Of a DNA stretch of 64,000 nt, positions 44,855 to 52,533 are shown piece by piece (the first letter of the stretch is position 1; every line of letters starts with the position of its first letter). Position numbers and translations under genes: made by a program. The DNA comes from Pelagibius sp. CAU 1746 (GTDB lineage Bacteria > Pseudomonadota > Alphaproteobacteria > Kiloniellales > Kiloniellaceae), in NCBI RefSeq assembly GCF_039839785.1, contig NZ_JBDOQT010000001.1, positions 2,852,001-2,916,000 of the forward strand, read 5' to 3'. The notes beneath the pieces are model-generated. The model did not search any database. It saw only the letters and a program-made list of their open reading frames with translations, and was not told the DNA's origin.

Positions 44855-46537
44855 TCAGCAGCCGCCCGCGGGTTGCAGCAGGCCCCAGCCGAAGGTGCTG
44901 TCGCGGCCCGGCGTGCCGAGGTCGCGGGCGCTCTGGTGCAAGCCCTGGCGGATCGTCTGAGGGGAGGCGTCCGGCGCCTTGGCGAGGGAGAGGGCCGCTG
45001 CGGCGGCGACGAAGGGGGCCGCGAAGGAGGTGCCGCTGTTGTAGCGGCCGCCCCGGCCGCCGCGGGCGCTCCAGACATCGACGCCCGGTGCCGCCAGGTC
45101 GATGTAGTCGCCGCGGTTGGCTTCGGTATAGGGCTGCAGCGCCGCGTCCACCGCCGTCACCGCGACCACCGGCGCGTAGCCGGCGGGGAACACCGGCGCC
45201 GCATTGGGGCCTTCGTTGCCGGCCGCCGCGATCAGGATCATGCCGCTTTGGTGGGCGCGCTCCACGGTGAGGCGCATGACCTGGTTGCCCGGGCCCGACA
45301 GACTGAGGTTCACCACCCGCACGCCCTGTTGCCCGAGCCAGTCGACCGAGCGCGCGATGGCGTCGGTGGTGCCGACGATGCGGTTGTCGTCCCGCAACGA
45401 GAAAATCGCCGCCGCGAAAAGGCGGGCGGCGGGCAACAGTCCGCTTGAGTTGCTGCCGGGCGCGCCGACGATGATGGCGGCCACGGCGGTGCCATGGTCG
45501 GGCGGCGCCGGCGGTACGCCGCCGGCGATGAAACTTCGCGCCGTAACCTGGCGGTCGGTCAGCGCTTCATGGCCGGTATCGATGGCGGTATCGATCAGGC
45601 CGACGTCGACGGAGGTTTCGCAAGTCCGTTCCTCGCCGGGCCAGCCGATCAGTGCCTTGGCGTAGTGCCGCGGTGCGCCGCCGGCTTGCGAGGCGGCATC
45701 CGGCTCGTAAAGCGTGTTGGCGTCGAAAAGCGTAGCCGGGAAGGTCTGGCGCAGGGCATCGAGGGCCGCCGGCACGTCCTGGCCGCCGGGCACTCCCAGG
45801 CGCAGCAGCGCGAAGCCCAGCGCCGGAAGCTCCTGCAGAGAGCGCACTGCATAGCCGAGCGTGGTGAGCTGCTGGGCCAGGGCCGTCGCGTCGGCCAGCG
45901 ATGCGGTAATGGCCAGTACCTCGTCGGGCACGATGTCGGGATCGGCCGCAGCAGATTGACCAGGCGGCGGTGCCGGTGCGCCGGGCTGCGGACCCTGCGG
46001 CGTGGCGGTCGAGCTTGCCGCCGGACGGCGTGGCGTAGGCCGCCGCGGTTCGGGGTCGCGGCCGGGGCCGGGGTCGACCTGGGCGGAGGTGCCCCTATCG
46101 ATCGAGGGCCGGTTCGCACTTTCGCAGATCTGGACCGGGCGCCCCTGGCCCGACAGCCATTTGCCGCTGCGCGCTTCCTGAATTCCCAGGATGTACCACT
46201 TGCCGCGTTCCAGGGTCTTACTCTTCGGTACCGTGGCGTGGATCATCCGGTTGTTCCAGGAGGAAACCGGGAGTGCGACACTGACGTTGGGATCGCGGAT
46301 CACCAGCAGCCGGCCGGCGGCGCGGCCCAGGTTGCGGCCGCGCACTTTCAGCGTGTCGCCGAAGTCGACGCAACCGGTGAGGCCGATACCCATGATGACC
46401 GGCTGGGCGGTCGTCGTCGCGGCCTGCGCCTTGGCCGGGTTCTGGGCCGGCAGAAGAACGGCCAGCGCCACGGCCACGAGGCCGCCGAGCAGGCTACCGC
46501 GAAAGCGGGTCAGCCGGTCTGCGCGTGCGGCGGCCAT
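44855..46537 (-). CDS. Secreted S8 (subtilisin-like) serine protease
   Basis: A 560-residue protein with an N-terminal signal/anchor (residues 13-38). A TIG-like beta domain spans about 46-138, a Pro-rich linker 152-200 and a propeptide-like segment 205-275. The catalytic domain follows with Asp316 (VGLIDTAID), His348 (PPDHGTAVA), the oxyanion Asn441 (AAAGNEGP) and Ser504 (SGTSFAAP). All catalytic residues are present. It follows the anti-sigma gene by 6 bp and is the last gene of the six-gene run. A regulatory role toward the anti-sigma factor is inference. Confidence 0.93.
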   Translation of the reverse strand: MAAARADRLTRFRGSLLGGLVAVALAVLLPAQNPAKAQAATTTAQPVIMGIGLTGCVDFGDTLKVRGRNLGRAAGRLLVIRDPNVSVALPVSSWNNRMIHATVPKSKTLERGKWYILGIQEARSGKWLSGQGRPVQICESANRPSIDRGTSAQVDPGPGRDPEPRRPTPRRPAASSTATPQGPQPGAPAPPPGQSAAADPDIVPDEVLAITASLADATALAQQLTTLGYAVRSLQELPALGFALLRLGVPGGQDVPAALDALRQTFPATLFDANTLYEPDAASQAGGAPRHYAKALIGWPGEERTCETSVDVGLIDTAIDTGHEALTDRQVTARSFIAGGVPPAPPDHGTAVAAIIVGAPGSNSSGLLPAARLFAAAIFSLRDDNRIVGTTDAIARSVDWLGQQGVRVVNLSLSGPGNQVMRLTVERAHQSGMILIAAAGNEGPNAAPVFPAGYAPVVAVTAVDAALQPYTEANRGDYIDLAAPGVDVWSARGGRGGRYNSGTSFAAPFVAAAAALSLAKAPDASPQTIRQGLHQSARDLGTPGRDSTFGWGLLQPAGGC

Positions 46538-46543
46538 GGCGCG

Positions 46544-47176
46544 TCAGTTCCTTTCGGCGAAGGTGACGACCGTGCCGTTGGCCCGCAGGGCGGCGAGGGC
46601 TTCCTCCACCGTGGTGGCCTTGGGATCGACGAGGCGCAGGTTGTAGATGCCCAGGGCCGTCGGGCCGTCGGCGATGGAAGCGCCGGCCGCCTGCAGCACT
46701 TCGCGGATATCCTGCTCCGTGGCATCGGGCGCGAAGGTCACCTGCATCACGGCAGGTGCGCCGCCCGTGGCGGTCGTCACGTCGCCGCCGGTCGGGATCA
46801 GGCCGCTGTTCATGCCGACCATGACACCGGCCTGGACCACGATGGCCAAGCAGGCGGCGATGGCCAGCGGCCGCCAGAAGCTGGCGACGGTCAGAACCTT
46901 GCCGGTCATCCTGTCGGCGCTGCCCTTTTGCTGTTCGGCGTCCTGCTTGATCTCGCGCTTCAGGCGTTGCAGGCCCAGCTCGCCCGGGCTGTTCTCGAAG
47001 GCTTGATCCTTGACCTGCTGGCGCAGTTGGCGCAGCAGTTCCACCTCGTCGCGCGCCTGGGCGCTTTCTTCCAGGTAGGCCTCGACCGCCCGGCGTTCCC
47101 CAGCCTCCAGGGTGCCGTTGACGTACCAGGGCAGCAGCAGGTCCAGGTTCTCGTCTCTTTTTCCGTTGTCAGCCAT
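46544..47176 (-). CDS. Membrane anti-sigma factor with prodomain-like periplasmic domain
   Basis: The ATG at 47176 overlaps the sigma stop (TAATG), giving 210 residues. Residues 10-60 (DLLLPWYVNGTLEAGERRAV) are the sigma-binding domain; it lacks the His/Cys zinc motif. The helix is at about 100-122. Residues 142-210 lie outside the membrane and carry TALGIYNLRL and VEEALAALRAN. This part aligns by eye with residues 206-274 of the adjacent protease. It should hold the ECF factor inactive until a surface signal releases it. Confidence 0.88.
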   Translation of the reverse strand: MADNGKRDENLDLLLPWYVNGTLEAGERRAVEAYLEESAQARDEVELLRQLRQQVKDQAFENSPGELGLQRLKREIKQDAEQQKGSADRMTGKVLTVASFWRPLAIAACLAIVVQAGVMVGMNSGLIPTGGDVTTATGGAPAVMQVTFAPDATEQDIREVLQAAGASIADGPTALGIYNLRLVDPKATTVEEALAALRANGTVVTFAERN

Positions 47177-47730
47177 TATGACAATCCCATCTCTTTGAGC
47201 CCCGCAAGGCACTTCATCAGTGCCTTCTTCGCGTGAAACATCCTCGTCTTCACCGTGCCCTCGGGGCAGCCGACGATGTCGGCGATCTGCCCGTAGGGGA
47301 GGTCTTCGAAGAAAGCCAGATGGACCACGCTGCGGTGCGCCTCTGAGAGTTGATCAACACAGTGCCGCACCTGTTCCGCATCCTGGGCCGCGGAGAGTGT
47401 TTCTGCTGCGTTGGGAGATTCGTCCTCTGCAATCTCCGGATCCAGCTCCACGCTCTCTCCTGGCTTGCGCCGCCGGATCCGGTCGATCGCCTTGTGGTGA
47501 GCGATGCCTAGAACCCAGGTGCTCACCGAGGATCGGCCTTCAAAGCGGCTGGCGCTGCGCCAGACTTCGAACATGACCTCGTTGAGTACGTCGGAGGCAT
47601 CGAAGGAATCGTTCAATTTGGAACGAATAAAACGGTAAACCCGCCCCTCGTAGAGGCGATAGAAGGCATCCATCGCCGACTCGTCGCCGTTCGCCATTCG
47701 GCTCAGCAGCTCTCGATCGTCTTCTGTCAA
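47176..47730 (-). CDS. ECF-type RNA polymerase sigma factor
   Basis: A TTG start at 47730 with AGGGG 8 nt upstream gives 184 residues; the frame stays open to 47844, but that part overlaps the upstream gene. Region 2 is at about 18-85 (DAFYRLYEGRVYRFIRSKLN, SDVLNEVMFEVWR, STWVLGIAHHKAIDRIRRR) and region 4 at about 120-175 (FEDLPYGQIADIVGCPEGTV, KTRMFHAKKAL). Coupled to the anti-sigma gene by TAATG. Its targets probably include the operon itself. Confidence 0.93.
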   Translation of the reverse strand: MTEDDRELLSRMANGDESAMDAFYRLYEGRVYRFIRSKLNDSFDASDVLNEVMFEVWRSASRFEGRSSVSTWVLGIAHHKAIDRIRRRKPGESVELDPEIAEDESPNAAETLSAAQDAEQVRHCVDQLSEAHRSVVHLAFFEDLPYGQIADIVGCPEGTVKTRMFHAKKALMKCLAGLKEMGLS

Positions 47731-47785
47731 GAGTAGCCCCTGTGGCTGGCGGCGGCCACGGCCCCCTTGTGAGGGCGCAGGACGC

Positions 47786-48994
47786 CTAAGGTTTATGAAT
47801 CTCCCTCGCGGGACTGGTCCCGATAATAGCGCCATTAGCATCAATTGCGGTGACCATCCAGAGGTAGCGCTTGCCGCCGGGCAATTGCGCCAGGGTGAAG
47901 GCCTCCAGGCTCGCGGAAGTCCGCCCGCCGGGCACGAAGATGCCGGCCGCGGCGGGTTCGCCCGCCAGCGCCGTTCCGGCGGTCATCTGCCCAGCCGTCG
48001 CTTGGGTGTCACGGGCCGGGTCCAGCGGCTCCGCCGGGCCGGCCGGGGCGGTGAAGAAGGAAAGCTGGTAGGCATCGGCGCCGGGCAGGGCGTTCCAGGA
48101 AAAACGGGTCTGTGCGGTGAGCGGCGCGCCAGGGCGCGGCCCGGTCAGCAGGATATCGCGTCGCGCCATCGCGGGCAGGGCGCTGCGCTTGGGCGTTATG
48201 TAGTATTGCAGGGTAGGCGCGTCGAAGCCGAACTCGGGGTCGATCATCCTCAATCGCACCAGGTGGGTGCCTTCCTCACCGGTCGGCAGCGGCGGGCTGG
48301 TCAGCACTGTCCGTCCTCCCACGCCGACGCCCTGGCGCACCAGCGCGAGGGGATGGAACGCCGGAGCGCCCGCGGTGGAGGCGGCCGTGGCCACCTCCCA
48401 CTGCATCTGCAGCAGGCCGATGCCGCTGGTGTTGAGTTCGGCGACGACGCGCAGTTCGCTGCCCCTGGGCAGCACGCGGCTGCGCGTATGGTCGTCGAAG
48501 GTGAGCTCCAGGCGTTGAACCGAGAGCGCGGCCGAGCCCTCGCCGGTCGCCGCCACTTCGAACTGGCCGTCCTCGGTGCTGTTGTCGGCACTGTCCGTAA
48601 AGACGCGGCGCAGGGTCAGCGAGGCGCCTTCCTTGACGGCGCGATAGACCATTGCCTGGGGTATCTGGACGGTCTCCCGGAGACGCAAAACCTCCGAGTA
48701 GACCTCGCCCTTGGCGCTCTGGGACACCTTGCGGGGCAAGTTGCCCGCGGCGACGCCGTCGATGAACACTTGGACGGCGGATGACGAAACGATGCCCGGA
48801 TTGGGTACGTCGGGCGAGATTCGCTCCACGTTCCAGTTCACGGTGACCGCGGCCGGTCCGATGCTTGCAATCCGCGCGTTGGCCGGAGTGGCGGTAACGT
48901 CGTTGAGATACGCCTCCGCCTGCGGCAGCGCGATGGTCATGGCGGCCAGCGTGGCGGCCAGCACGGTGGGGAGTCTGAGGTTTCGGGCGCCCAT
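47786..48994 (-). CDS. Secreted paralogue B of unknown function
   Basis: The ATG at 48994 follows AAGGAA; a GTG two codons earlier is less well placed. The 402-residue protein has a signal peptide ending near ALPQAEA-Y and is otherwise beta-rich. It shares with the neighbour at 49143 the segments LNTSG-GL----QWEVATAA, FHPLALVRQ and the closing RYLW-V-A-D--GA-IG-SPAREI-KP. An Ig/FN3-like architecture is likely, but no family is recognised. It ends 56 bp before the sigma start. Confidence 0.8.
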   Translation of the reverse strand: MGARNLRLPTVLAATLAAMTIALPQAEAYLNDVTATPANARIASIGPAAVTVNWNVERISPDVPNPGIVSSSAVQVFIDGVAAGNLPRKVSQSAKGEVYSEVLRLRETVQIPQAMVYRAVKEGASLTLRRVFTDSADNSTEDGQFEVAATGEGSAALSVQRLELTFDDHTRSRVLPRGSELRVVAELNTSGIGLLQMQWEVATAASTAGAPAFHPLALVRQGVGVGGRTVLTSPPLPTGEEGTHLVRLRMIDPEFGFDAPTLQYYITPKRSALPAMARRDILLTGPRPGAPLTAQTRFSWNALPGADAYQLSFFTAPAGPAEPLDPARDTQATAGQMTAGTALAGEPAAAGIFVPGGRTSASLEAFTLAQLPGGKRYLWMVTAIDANGAIIGTSPAREIHKP

Positions 48995-49142
48995 GGTCAC
49001 ATTCCTTGGCTAACGGTTGTCCTTGCTCTCGAACGCTTTCGTGCAAGGACGACGGACGGCTTCCGGGCAGGCCGCCGCCGTTGCTCTTGCTCCCCGTTTG
49101 TCGTTGCGACGGAGGGAGTGGTTCAAAGAGCGGCGGGCGCCC

Positions 49143-50366
49143 TCAAGGCTTGTATATCTCGCGCGCCGGGCTCCTGCCGATGACCGCGCCTTCCTCGTCC
49201 AGGGCTCTGACGGACCATAGGTAGCGGCGGTCGTTGGGCAGGTGGGCCAGGGTGTGGCCTTGCAGGCGCAGCTCCGTCACGGCCGCGGGAACCACGATCC
49301 CGGTGAGAGGCCGCAGCCCCCGCAGGCTCTCGGTATCCGGTGCGCGGTCCAGCGGGACCGCCGTCACCACGTCGTTGGCCACCACGTTGCCGCCAGGGCC
49401 CGGCGGCGCGCCGAAGATCTCCAGCTTGTAGAGATGCGCCCCCGGCAAGCCCTGCCAGGCAAAGCGCGTGGTCAGAGTCAGCGGTGTGCCGAGGCTGGGT
49501 GAGGTGACCAGCATGGGCTGCGGGTCTTGGCGCTGCGGCAGCGGGCTTTCGGGCGTCACGTAGTACTGCAACTGCGGCTCGTCGAACAGCGGGTCGGGCT
49601 CGTCCAGCCGGAGCCGCACGAGGTTGTTGCCTTCGAAACGAGTGGGCAGCGGCGGGCTGGTGATGGTGACCGGGCGGCTGCCGGCGACCGGCTGACGGAC
49701 CAGGGCCAGAGGGCGGAAGACGGGCGTGCCCGCGGTCGTCGCCGCGGTGGCCACTTCCCACTGTCCGCGGATCAGGCCGGACCCCGAGGTGTTGAGCCGG
49801 GCGACGGCGCGCAGGCGCCGGTCCTTTGGCAAGACCTTGAAGCGCGAGTCGTCATCGAAGCGCAACTCCATGCGGCTGACATTCAAGGGCACCGAGCCAG
49901 GGCCGGAGGGCGTCAGCAGCGTGGTGCCGGACAAGCTGGGAGGAGGCGTGACCCCGAGGCTGTCGGTGAAGGTCCGCTGGTAGACGATCGGCACGCCGGA
50001 CTTGATGGCGCGGAAGGCCACGCCTTGCGGCACGGTGAAGGTCTCGGTGAAGATCAGGTTTTCGTTGGTGGCTGCCGGGCCCGGCGCAAAACGGGAGAGC
50101 GGGCGGTGGATGGTCGCCAGGACGGTGCCGTTGACGATGAGGGCTCCGCTCGGCGAACTGACGGTTCCGGGATTGGAAGGCGCGGAGCCGCCAAGGCGGA
50201 CCACCTGCCAGGTGACGGTCACGGTGCTGGGCCCGACGCTGGAAATCGGGATGCGGGCCTGGGTCGTGTCGACGCTCAAGATGCCGGCGAAGGCGCCGGG
50301 CGCGAGCGGCAGCACGCTTGCCGAGACGAGGAACGCGAGAGCGAGAGGGAGAAATCGAAGGTTCAT
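49143..50366 (-). CDS. Secreted paralogue A of unknown function
   Basis: A 407-residue protein with a signal peptide ending near PGAFA-G. It is a paralogue of the protein at 47786, of similar length and collinear over its whole length. SVGPSTVTVTWQVVR suggests an Ig-like first domain, and MELRFDDDSRFKVLPKD begins the best conserved central domain. It starts 10 bp after the beta-barrel gene and may be surface-exposed or periplasmic. A gap of about 148 bp separates it from paralogue B. Confidence 0.8.
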   Translation of the reverse strand: MNLRFLPLALAFLVSASVLPLAPGAFAGILSVDTTQARIPISSVGPSTVTVTWQVVRLGGSAPSNPGTVSSPSGALIVNGTVLATIHRPLSRFAPGPAATNENLIFTETFTVPQGVAFRAIKSGVPIVYQRTFTDSLGVTPPPSLSGTTLLTPSGPGSVPLNVSRMELRFDDDSRFKVLPKDRRLRAVARLNTSGSGLIRGQWEVATAATTAGTPVFRPLALVRQPVAGSRPVTITSPPLPTRFEGNNLVRLRLDEPDPLFDEPQLQYYVTPESPLPQRQDPQPMLVTSPSLGTPLTLTTRFAWQGLPGAHLYKLEIFGAPPGPGGNVVANDVVTAVPLDRAPDTESLRGLRPLTGIVVPAAVTELRLQGHTLAHLPNDRRYLWSVRALDEEGAVIGRSPAREIYKP

Positions 50367-50376
50367 CGGAGCGCTC

Positions 50377-52473
50377 TCAATAGGCCACGGGCAACGACAG
50401 ACGAAGGGATGTAAAGGCCTGGTATTGCAAGTCTTTCTCCGGATTATCGAAGTCGTCGTTGGTGTCCTGGACGTTCCCGCTCAGCGCCAGGGCCACGCCC
50501 AGCCGGTTGACGTCCGCCTGGCGCAGCGTCCACACGACCTCTCCATTCAGGCTGTTGGTGTCGGGTGTGTCGCCGTCGCCCATCCGATGGTTCAAAGAAT
50601 AATACAGGGTGGCGTCCAGGGTTTCCGGAATCACCGTGACATTTGCGCCCAAGTTCAGCAGCAGGCTCTGATTGTCGTCGCCGGTGTCCAGATCCTCGAA
50701 GTTGTCCCATTGGACACTGGGTTGGAGAGACAGCCAGTCGTCGACCATGACGTAGGCGCTGAGCGCCGTGCTGTTGTTGCGCGTGTCGCTGCTCAAGTCG
50801 ACGTGATCCTCGAAGGAGTAGATCGTGTGCGACAGGTTCCAGTTCCAGCTTTCGTAGTTCGCACCGGCGCTCAAGGTAAGGGAGCGCGTGGAGTTGTTGG
50901 CGTCGTCGTCGGGGAAATCCTGTGATCTGTCGATGCGGTCGATTTCGAAGAACGAGGCGGAGAGTCCGAAGAAGGGTTGGCCGTACCATGGCAGGGAACC
51001 GTCTTCCAGCGGCTCGACGTAGGGTGTGTAGTTGCCGTTGAAGTAGACGTTGATGTTCCGGTCGGTCGGCAGATAGTCCAGGTCGTCGACGTTGTTCACT
51101 TGGTGGTCGACCCGCAACTGCGCCGAGAACTCGTCCCAAAGGAAATCCGAGAAGACCGACGTCGTCTCCCGGTCGGGCTCGAGGTAAGGGTTGGCCAGGC
51201 TGCTGAAGAAGGTATCTACCTCGTCGCGCTGCACGCCGATCGTCCAGGTGAAGACGCTGCCGTCCAGGGTGGCGCCGCGCAGCGGCTCAAGGGAGGCCAA
51301 TACCGAATAGGCCTCGGCGTTTTCCGCGTCAAAGCCTTGGTCCTTGCCGTCGAAATCGAAGCTCGTCTGGGCATATTCGCCGCGCAGCCGCAGGGCCTCG
51401 TCGAACCACAGCGTGTCGGCGGCGATGGACCAGCCGTCGCCTTCGTTGACGGCTTCCTCCGATCCGATGCCGAAGCCGCCGTCGCCGCCCTCGCCGGTGT
51501 AGTAGGTTCCCGTCAGGACGACGTTGTCCTTCAGGGCTTCGACAGGCCGCACCGAAACCGAAACGCCTTCGACCCGCTCTTCGTCGTGGCTGATGCCCAG
51601 CACGTGCTTGGTGCCGACCATGGCCTCGGTGCGCTGCACGAAGCCGGTGACGGTGAGGCGTTCGTCTGCGAGGCCCGCCCGCAAGGAGACGCCGCGCCGG
51701 TAGAAGCCCGACATGATCAGGTTTTCGATGCCGGTGTCATGATCGCCGACCGTGAACCCGGCGAAAGAGCTCTCGCGCTCGTAGTCGCCGTCGATCCTGA
51801 ATTCGCCGAGGTCGAGGTTGCGCTCGTCGATGCCCAGTTCGAGCTGGCTGTTATAGAGATAGTTGCCCTGCGCGGTGATGCGCCAGTGGTCGTCGCCAGC
51901 CGCCGCCTCGACGTTGCCGGCACTTTCGCCGGTGACGTGCTGGGGAGGAACGTCGACGCCGTTCTCGGCGATCCGGGCGTTCACTTCGCCGGCCAGGTCG
52001 GCATTCAGCGAGAGATCGCGGATCAGATCGGAATGGCGGATCTCGAGGCTCCAGTAACCGCGCTCCAGGATGGCGCCGTCGCCGCTGCGCTCGACAAGGC
52101 GCAAGCTGTGGCTGCCGGTGGAGAGCGGTTCCGGCGGCGTGACCACCAGGCGGGGACCCTCGAGCGCGACGAAGGCGGTGACGTCGAGGTCGTCCAGCTC
52201 GACCGCCAGGCTCCGGTAGACGGCGGGATCCAGGTCTGCCGGCAGCAGGATAACGATGGGGTCGCTGCGCCCGCGGGTTTCCGAGGTCAGGGATTCAAGT
52301 TCCGGAATCCAGTCGCCCTGCGCCGCGGCCGGCGGGCTGCCGCAAAGGGACAGGGCCAGGAGGATCGTGGCCAGCCCGGTGGTGGAACAGATATAAGAAC
52401 GTCCGGCCGTCCTGCGGCCGGATAGCACTAAAGGACGCCTGGTGCCCTGCGCACCACGCTTGCTTTCCTGCAT
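50377..52473 (-). CDS. Outer-membrane beta-barrel protein
   Basis: A 698-residue protein with a long basic N-terminus, a signal helix at about 30-50 ending in PPAAAQ, and an N-terminal periplasmic region to about 200 with an Ig-like part (STGSHSLRLVERSGDGAI). A long series of alternating polar/aromatic strands follows, for example LRLRGEYAQTSFDFDG and WNWNLSHTIYSFEDH. It ends in Tyr (LRLSLPVAY), the aromatic terminal residue expected for barrel insertion. No plug or TonB box is seen. First gene of the six-gene run. The solute or partner is unknown. Confidence 0.82.
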   Translation of the reverse strand: MQESKRGAQGTRRPLVLSGRRTAGRSYICSTTGLATILLALSLCGSPPAAAQGDWIPELESLTSETRGRSDPIVILLPADLDPAVYRSLAVELDDLDVTAFVALEGPRLVVTPPEPLSTGSHSLRLVERSGDGAILERGYWSLEIRHSDLIRDLSLNADLAGEVNARIAENGVDVPPQHVTGESAGNVEAAAGDDHWRITAQGNYLYNSQLELGIDERNLDLGEFRIDGDYERESSFAGFTVGDHDTGIENLIMSGFYRRGVSLRAGLADERLTVTGFVQRTEAMVGTKHVLGISHDEERVEGVSVSVRPVEALKDNVVLTGTYYTGEGGDGGFGIGSEEAVNEGDGWSIAADTLWFDEALRLRGEYAQTSFDFDGKDQGFDAENAEAYSVLASLEPLRGATLDGSVFTWTIGVQRDEVDTFFSSLANPYLEPDRETTSVFSDFLWDEFSAQLRVDHQVNNVDDLDYLPTDRNINVYFNGNYTPYVEPLEDGSLPWYGQPFFGLSASFFEIDRIDRSQDFPDDDANNSTRSLTLSAGANYESWNWNLSHTIYSFEDHVDLSSDTRNNSTALSAYVMVDDWLSLQPSVQWDNFEDLDTGDDNQSLLLNLGANVTVIPETLDATLYYSLNHRMGDGDTPDTNSLNGEVVWTLRQADVNRLGVALALSGNVQDTNDDFDNPEKDLQYQAFTSLRLSLPVAY

Positions 52474-52504: not shown

Positions 52505-52533
52505 CGAATTTAAGGGCGACTCTCCCACGTCAA
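52505..52533 (-). promoter_or_regulatory. Possible promoter of the six-gene surface operon
   Basis: TTGACG (complement of 52528-52533) followed on the minus strand by a T/A-rich TTAAATTC about 15 bp on lies some 35-55 bp upstream of the barrel gene. The spacing is not ideal for a housekeeping promoter. Confidence 0.25.

Follow-up and report, generated by a model that had tools for sequence, protein, structure and literature searches.

Subtilases can make the first cut in a proteolytic relay, as mammalian S1P (SKI-1) does at site 1 of SREBP. We know of no bacterial anti-sigma factor that receives its site-1 cut from a subtilase. Subtilase prosegments inhibit by threading their C-terminal tail into the active site, and an inhibitory C-terminal tail is also present in POIA1 and I9-type inhibitors. 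In its available portion, a review of regulated proteolysis lists DegS, DegP, SipS, SipT, and Prc (PMC7593790). The word 'subtilisin' is absent from the available text of that review, of a second review of regulated proteolysis (PMC10202637), and of PMC7406223 and PMC8103513. The titles and abstract openings of the literature matches listed include neither an anti-sigma factor with a subtilase propeptide domain nor a subtilase acting as a site-1 protease of an extracytoplasmic function (ECF) system; the standard ECF reclassification lies outside this scope and may note the gene neighbourhood. In the rpoE6-ecfR6 system of Sinorhizobium meliloti, the divergent serine protease gene SMa0142 is a target of RpoE6 and, according to the accessible part of the paper, is widely conserved in ECF26 (PMC6180224). 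Here we describe a gene cassette in a 64,000-nucleotide stretch of Pelagibius sp. CAU 1746 (contig NZ_JBDOQT010000001.1, positions 2,852,001 to 2,916,000; the window), in which genes for an ECF sigma factor, a membrane anti-sigma factor, and an S8 subtilase follow one another, and in which the predicted periplasmic domain of the anti-sigma factor is related to subtilase prodomains.

The 210-residue anti-sigma factor (46544..47176, minus strand, ATG at 47176) is followed by the gene for the 560-residue S8 subtilase (44855..46537, minus strand), which is predicted to be secreted from a signal peptide recognized by inspection. The ECF sigma gene (47176..47844, minus strand) carries Sigma70_r2 and Sigma70_r4_2 matches in Pfam and overlaps the anti-sigma gene in TAATG, the sigma stop codon and the anti-sigma ATG having one base in common. 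The sigma open reading frame (ORF) opens with a TTG at 47844, and the 184-residue length of orthologues points to a start near 47730. Two conserved peptides were used to scan 84,980 genomes, and 212 relatives were confirmed. The 80 best loci were kept; they are ranked by similarity to the window, and several come from genomes of its own genus. The family set of 62 members comprises the window and 61 of these 80 loci. The other 19 were near-duplicates, truncated, or of uncertain start, and 8 of the 11 loci with a caspase partner are among them.

The anti-sigma factor begins with a cytoplasmic helical domain of zf-HC2-like type (residues 1-86; 46919..47176, minus strand). A zf-HC2 match at E<=1 occurs in 52 of the 62 family members; in the window protein it has E 0.08, under the cut-off. 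Residues 6-63 match RslA (3hug) with Z 7.6 in the VIA structural comparison. The zf-HC2-like domain and the adjoining ECF sigma gene mark the protein as a predicted class I ECF anti-sigma factor. A transmembrane helix (residues 102-123; 46808..46873, minus strand) is indicated by the AlphaFold2 (AF2) model and, by inspection, by hydrophobicity. It is followed by a periplasmic linker (residues 124-142; 46751..46807, minus strand), of which residues 124-134 are modeled with a predicted local distance difference test score (pLDDT) < 50, and by a periplasmic domain (residues 143-210; 46547..46750, minus strand) that resembles subtilase prodomains and lacks their C-terminal tail.

The relationship of this last domain emerges through known prodomains. 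The C-terminal end of the anti-sigma factor matches PF22148 (Fervidolysin_NPro-like) with E 1.2e-4 and 22.9 bits, above the cut-off of 21. PF22148 is found at E<=1 in 25 of the 62 members, second only to zf-HC2; rarer Pfam matches are DUF3379 in 9, POTRA_TamA_1 in 4, and ACT_4 in 2. A profile of the anti-sigma domain (A4, from the window and 37 loci) was compared by hhalign with an 18-row alignment of PF22148-type S8 prodomains from a phylum-wide genome draw, and matched it with 96.7% probability (P 3e-10) over 65 columns. The propeptide of the cassette proteases matched the same alignment with 94.1% probability (P 1e-7) over 61 columns. Two families that share this topology served as controls: HMA (24 sequences) and ACT (18 sequences) gave 11.3% over 25 columns and 17.7% over 21 columns against the anti-sigma domain, and 4.4% and 0.4% against the cassette propeptide; all control alignments with either segment covered 11-25 columns. 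Since HMA and ACT reached 14.0% and 22.9% against the prodomain alignment itself, hhalign probabilities near 20% are background here. Judged by its profile (hhalign 94%), the protease's propeptide is another branch of the subtilase-prodomain superfamily, and the scores place the anti-sigma domain closer to ordinary prodomains than to the propeptide of its neighbour.

The predicted structure agrees with this placement. The AF2 model of the anti-sigma factor, made with 62 sequences, has a confident b-a-b-b-a-b C-domain (pLDDT 93-98), with strands at residues 144-148, 166-170, 177-182, and 204-209 and helices at 154-164 and 190-199. The first-ranked Foldseek match of the model is 1spb_P, the prosegment of subtilisin BPN', with probability 1.00 and an E of only 0.044; no Foldseek match of this model reached E 0.001, and fervidolysin (1r6v) stands at rank 46. 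In VIA the domain superposes on 1spb_P with Z 7.5 over 62 residues at 2.7 Å and on other prosegments with Z 6.0-7.5, in a range (Z below 8) where a common arrangement alone can be responsible. In the 1spb_P alignment the anti-sigma factor ends opposite residue 71 of the 77 in the prosegment and therefore lacks the stretch that reaches into the active site. Past the equivalent of residue 208 there are at most 4 residues in 45 of the 62 members, at most 5 in 48, and at least 7 in 14, counts that carry the uncertainty of aligning divergent C-termini; most of the longer ones have a high content of G, P, and S. Profile and model evidence together confirm membership of the predicted periplasmic domain in the subtilase-prodomain superfamily. 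Being C-terminal in an anti-sigma factor and having no tail, it is related to prodomains but does not serve as one.

Compared directly, the anti-sigma domain and the protease propeptide form a weak pair when taken alone. BLASTP finds 13 of 25 residues identical (E 0.056), and hhalign of the two family profiles gives a collinear alignment of 48 columns with 31% identity and a probability of 3.9% (P 0.011). The true hhalign score was reached by 4 of 300 column shuffles (the largest 18.8 versus 15.9), and a reversed propeptide scored 12.4. When 95-residue segments were slid along the protease, scores above 12.1 came from just two of the 11, those covering the propeptide (starts 181 and 226). The pair becomes firm because both segments match PF22148-type prodomains and the HMA and ACT controls stay low. 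The original prediction had aligned residues 142-210 of the anti-sigma factor with residues 206-274 of the protease by eye. Its gene positions and residue numbering are right, and the V-x2-AL-x-ALR part of its motif is exact in both proteins, but the first spacer is three residues and not four (ALG-x3-LRL: ALGIYNLRL at anti-sigma 174-182, ALGFALLRL at protease 239-247). The resemblance that it proposed is borne out, both segments having the prodomain fold and belonging to the prodomain superfamily by PF22148, the hhalign bridge, AF2, and Foldseek. Profile-profile comparison upholds it through the PF22148-type prodomains but only weakly for the direct pair, and the predicted folds of the two segments agree.

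The protease has a Peptidase_S8 match (PF00082, E 1.5e-37), and D316, H348, N441, and S504 are invariant in 39 of 39 aligned proteases (the window and 38 others). The Asp-His-Ser triad and the oxyanion Asn within PF00082 identify it as a predicted S8 subtilase. Its N-terminal all-beta domain (residues 45-138; 46124..46405, minus strand), with strands in the AF2 model, appears IPT/TIG-like; TIG is found at E<=1 in 7 of the 39 cassette proteases, the window protease not among them. The predicted propeptide (residues 202-279; 45701..45934, minus strand) has in AF2 the b-a-b-b-a-b order of strands and helices seen in the anti-sigma C-domain. Neither PF22148 nor Inhibitor_I9 was found at E<=1 in any of the 39 cassette proteases. 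Residues 204-560 of the proenzyme superpose in VIA on unprocessed pro-subtilisin E (3whi) with Z 41.3 over 338 residues, and alignment to mature subtilisins delimits the catalytic domain (residues 287-560; 44858..45679, minus strand).

The pairing of the anti-sigma gene with a neighbouring gene for a secreted protease is conserved. The 80 loci come mostly from Alpha-, Beta-, and Gammaproteobacteria, with single records labelled Nitrospiria, Mariprofundaceae, Deltaproteobacteria, and Methylomirabilota. The sigma gene lies directly upstream of the anti-sigma gene in 73 of them, and a protease gene (S8 or caspase) directly downstream in 70. An S8 gene occupies the downstream place in 59 loci, always on the same strand (59/59). 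Four loci reach a contig end (L068, L072, L108, L122), and in two the S8 gene lies upstream instead (L103, L113). Because ranking biased these loci toward the window, a second test used 299 genomes drawn evenly from the phylum. A4 matched at least 24 places, spread over 22 genomes and including the window's own locus; the count is a minimum, as scoring did not cover all first-look candidates. All 24 places are anti-sigma ORFs with a sigma match near by, and flanks of 1.5 kb contain S8 at 21 and a caspase at 1. PF22148 at E<=1e-4 was found at 20 places in the same genomes, of which 19 are in or directly beside S8 genes and one is an anti-sigma factor of this kind; the window protein, with E 2.0e-4 in this genome search, just misses the limit. 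In one genome (G199), neighbouring genes (L177/L143) unite an S8 prodomain recognized by PF22148 (E 9.8e-6) with an anti-sigma domain recognized by A4 (E 5.8e-14). A second, weak PF22148 match in the window's genome (L002, E 0.03) fell by inspection in an HMG-CoA-lyase-like ORF and was dropped as a chance match.

Some variant arrangements were also seen. Several Kiloniellaceae genomes (L069, L070, L088) have the anti-sigma and S8 pair with no sigma match in the fetched flanks, and some hold second, orphan anti-sigma genes without sigma or protease (L087, L092, L131). Two loci (L056 and L058) carry a different sigma/anti-sigma pair with a divergent S8 gene about 2 kb away, an arrangement that resembles rpoE6 of Sinorhizobium; their proteases have Glu and Asp at the aligned oxyanion-hole Asn position.

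In 11 of the 80 loci a caspase ORF replaces S8, overlapping or following the end of the anti-sigma gene, and PF00656 is confirmed for four of the 11. Where the record title tells, these loci belong to Burkholderiales or Rhodocyclaceae. The domain motif reads GPGQLGDYY in 10 of the 11 caspase-partnered anti-sigma factors and, in most S8-partnered ones, GPSALG followed by I, V, or L and then Y. An acidic C-terminus was considered as a possible sign of a subtilase partner (39 of 52 S8-partnered versus 0 of 3 caspase-partnered members) and was not used, as the caspase-partnered members are too few and from one clade. Small secreted-looking proteins with repeats of the GVAEQNGKI-x-NST type are encoded about 2-3 kb downstream of the anti-sigma gene in L124, L126, and L133, past the sigma/anti-sigma/caspase cassette.

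The conserved adjacency of anti-sigma and subtilase genes suggests that the protease may operate the sigma switch. In the reading that we propose, the tail-less prodomain-like domain of the anti-sigma factor would serve as a dock for the mature subtilase, which from there would make the site-1 cut leading to release of sigma; we give this reading a probability of about 45%. With its own propeptide gone, the subtilase would have its propeptide-binding surface free for the anti-sigma domain. Once docked, the mature protease would make the site-1 cut, for which the flexible linker between membrane helix and domain is the proposed place; an M50-family site-2 protease would next free the sigma factor, and the freed sigma would transcribe its own operon. 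Several features are consistent with this sequence of events. The domain keeps the body of a prodomain without the inhibitory tail, and the catalytic residues of the protease are intact. S8 linkage is conserved, while the window's genome holds only two S8 genes in total, and the same genome has three M50 genes. In 11 of 80 loci a caspase, from a different protease clan, stands where the subtilase would be. Docking followed by a linker cut would make the subtilase a dedicated site-1 protease, with its maturation or arrival as the signal. The anti-sigma domain would have to compete with the protease's own propeptide for a single surface, which could make zymogen maturation itself the message. 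That a dedicated subtilase recognizes an ECF anti-sigma factor through a borrowed propeptide fold, and in this way reports its maturation to transcription, is a more tentative proposition than the docking and cut themselves.

A number of observations weigh against the docking model. Caspase substitution fits a secreted protease acting on the anti-sigma factor, and it equally weakens a rule of docking by subtilases only: the same domain family occurs without a subtilase in the fetched caspase loci, so docking would not be strictly prodomain-specific. PF22148 gave no match at E<=1 in L109, the one caspase-partnered anti-sigma factor that was scanned by itself. Four of the 80 loci have no protease despite readable flanks (L086, L087, L092, and L131, the last with a truncated anti-sigma factor), and 2 of the 24 evenly drawn A4 places, both in one genome, have neither S8 nor caspase within 1.5 kb. 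In L056 and L058, S8 genes lie near the sigma pair though the anti-sigma factor has no prodomain-like domain. A hidden Markov model of the anti-sigma domain found one match at E<=10 among 125 S8 ORFs, outside such cassettes, and because this direct match failed the connection was made through PF22148-type prodomains. Similarity between cognate anti-sigma domains and propeptides is no higher than between non-cognate ones (permutation p 0.27, 34 loci), the window's own pair ranking 5th of 34. Unrelated ferredoxin-like structures (ACT, RRM, Taco1) score Z 5.6-6.8 in VIA versus 7.5 for the prosegment. Finally, RpoE6 of S. meliloti activates a linked protease gene, as far as the accessible text describes it, so a sigma-linked protease may be only an output; together with the caspase loci, this weighs against a strictly prodomain-specific mechanism.

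Such an output role is the alternative that survives best, unlikely as we judge it to be. In that case the protease would be an output or an independent partner. Sigma would control a secreted protease and an outer-membrane module, and the domain, recruited long ago, would bind a different signal, such as a cassette protein that is secreted or sits in the outer membrane. The S. meliloti case favours it, since the anti-sigma factor there has a periplasmic domain somewhat like that of RsiW in the portion of the paper available (PMC6180224). It is also favoured by the replacement of S8 by caspases, by the lack of specific similarity between cognate pairs, and by the retention of the other cassette genes in about half of the loci (a homologue of the 698-residue protein described below in 41 of 80, of the paralogue pair in 45 of 80). 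It leaves unexplained, however, why the periplasmic domain belongs to a subtilase-prodomain family and why 21 of 24 evenly drawn matches lie beside a subtilase.

Inhibition is the second alternative. Anchored in the membrane and acting in trans as POIA1-like proteins do, the anti-sigma domain would inhibit the protease, hold it, or help it to fold. The subtilase would be kept inactive or tied to the inner membrane, and the anti-sigma factor would be altered, without being cut, when the protease is lost. Prosegments share their fold with the free-standing subtilisin inhibitor POIA1, which the anti-sigma domain matches in VIA (1v5i_B Z 6.5, 1itp Z 6.2), and the 14 of 62 members with at least 7 residues after the last strand could be read in the same way. 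Other genomes also have small PF22148 ORFs (L180 and L181; 113 and 151 residues) directly before S8 genes. These S8 genes carry their own PF22148 prodomain, and the small ORFs are possibly stand-alone propeptide-type partners. Against inhibition, the window protein stops at prosegment position 71 of 77 and 48 of 62 members have at most 5 residues past 208; a missing tail speaks against a classical inhibitor. The protease, moreover, already owns a complete propeptide. A decoy that arose by recent duplication of the protease's own propeptide is unsupported, because cognate pairs score no better than others and the domain is thus no recent copy of its neighbour's propeptide. We regard the inhibitor explanation as doubtful, and a decoy inhibitor as less likely than site-1 docking. 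A merely general ferredoxin-like resemblance, without common descent from prodomains, is very improbable: the fold is common and the direct pair comparison weak, but hhalign separates prodomains (96.7%) from HMA (11.3%) and ACT (17.7%), the window protein exceeds the PF22148 cut-off, and of the 20 other PF22148 places in the 299 genomes 19 are in or beside S8 genes, the remaining one being an anti-sigma factor of this kind.

The interpretation in the original prediction, that the domain is either a decoy for the protease or its cleavage target, is therefore partly supported. The prodomain fold and the conserved neighbour genes stand. The decoy version loses its footing with the missing tail and the absence of cognate closeness, and a putative cleavage target fits best.

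The remaining genes of the cassette precede the sigma gene. By ORF and Pfam calls in the window, the order of transcription on the minus strand is the 698-residue protein, two paralogues, ECF sigma, anti-sigma, and S8 protease. The first conserved cassette gene (50377..52473, minus strand) encodes the 698-residue protein, which by sequence inspection only is a candidate outer-membrane beta-barrel; Pfam and NCBIfam searches gave no family at E<=1. The two paralogous proteins of 404 and 407 residues (47786..50366, minus strand; ORFs 47786-49000 and 49143-50366) appear secreted by the same kind of inspection, and had no match below E 0.3 in Pfam and none at E<=10 in NCBIfam. The paralogues and the predicted barrel may act as sensor components of the system or be its output. 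Upstream of the cassette lies a 14-mer (52515..52528, minus strand), a candidate regulatory site. It is exact in the window and in 5 of 7 other aligned loci, has one mismatch in L066, and is absent from the most distant locus (L067). Its exact copy in the genome is single, and by eye it contains no clear ECF -35/-10 pair. With two mismatches it has 22 copies in the genome, below the 46 matches of a reversed control pattern, and copies with three mismatches within the window show no excess over shuffles. Lacking a clear promoter form and genome enrichment, the 14-mer supports no claim of a regulon.

If the docking model is true, regulated intramembrane proteolysis would have a bacterial example in which the site-1 cut falls to a subtilase. 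The cassette would also show a protease propeptide fold put to new use, as a docking site through which that protease can read a regulator. The cassette can be tested in genera that have cultured strains represented in the scan (Pelagibius, Kiloniella, Methylophaga, and Dyella), and a second version with a caspase is predicted in Burkholderiales.

Compared with known systems, the anti-sigma domain shares with the PF22148 S8 prodomain its fold, profile similarity over 65 columns, and a core ending at the last strand. It differs in standing at the periplasmic C-terminus of a membrane anti-sigma factor and not at the N-terminus of a protease, and in having no active-site tail. Free-standing inhibitors of the POIA1 and I9 type are alike, by the VIA match, in using the prodomain fold outside their own protease. 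The C-terminal tail that fills the active site in I9-type stand-alone inhibitors is, however, absent from the window protein and from most of the family, and here the domain is attached to a membrane-bound regulator. The RpoE6-EcfR6/SMa0142 system, the nearest printed arrangement found, likewise combines an ECF sigma/anti-sigma pair with a linked serine protease gene. There SMa0142 is divergent and a sigma target, and the periplasmic domain of EcfR6 is described, in the accessible part of the source, as having some similarity to RsiW, with no mention in that part of a prodomain-like domain. The protease gene of our cassette is co-directional in 59 of 59 S8-downstream loci and the domain is different, as opposed to the divergent protease and RsiW-like domain of ECF26. 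The RseA-DegS-RseP system shares with the cassette the zf-HC2-like anti-sigma domain, the single membrane helix, the periplasmic domain, and, at the level of genes, M50 proteases in the genome; the candidate site-1 protease in our case is a subtilase encoded in the operon. A subtilase acting at site 1 ahead of an M50 site-2 protease would follow the same logic as mammalian S1P, and the anti-sigma/subtilase cassette would be its putative bacterial counterpart.

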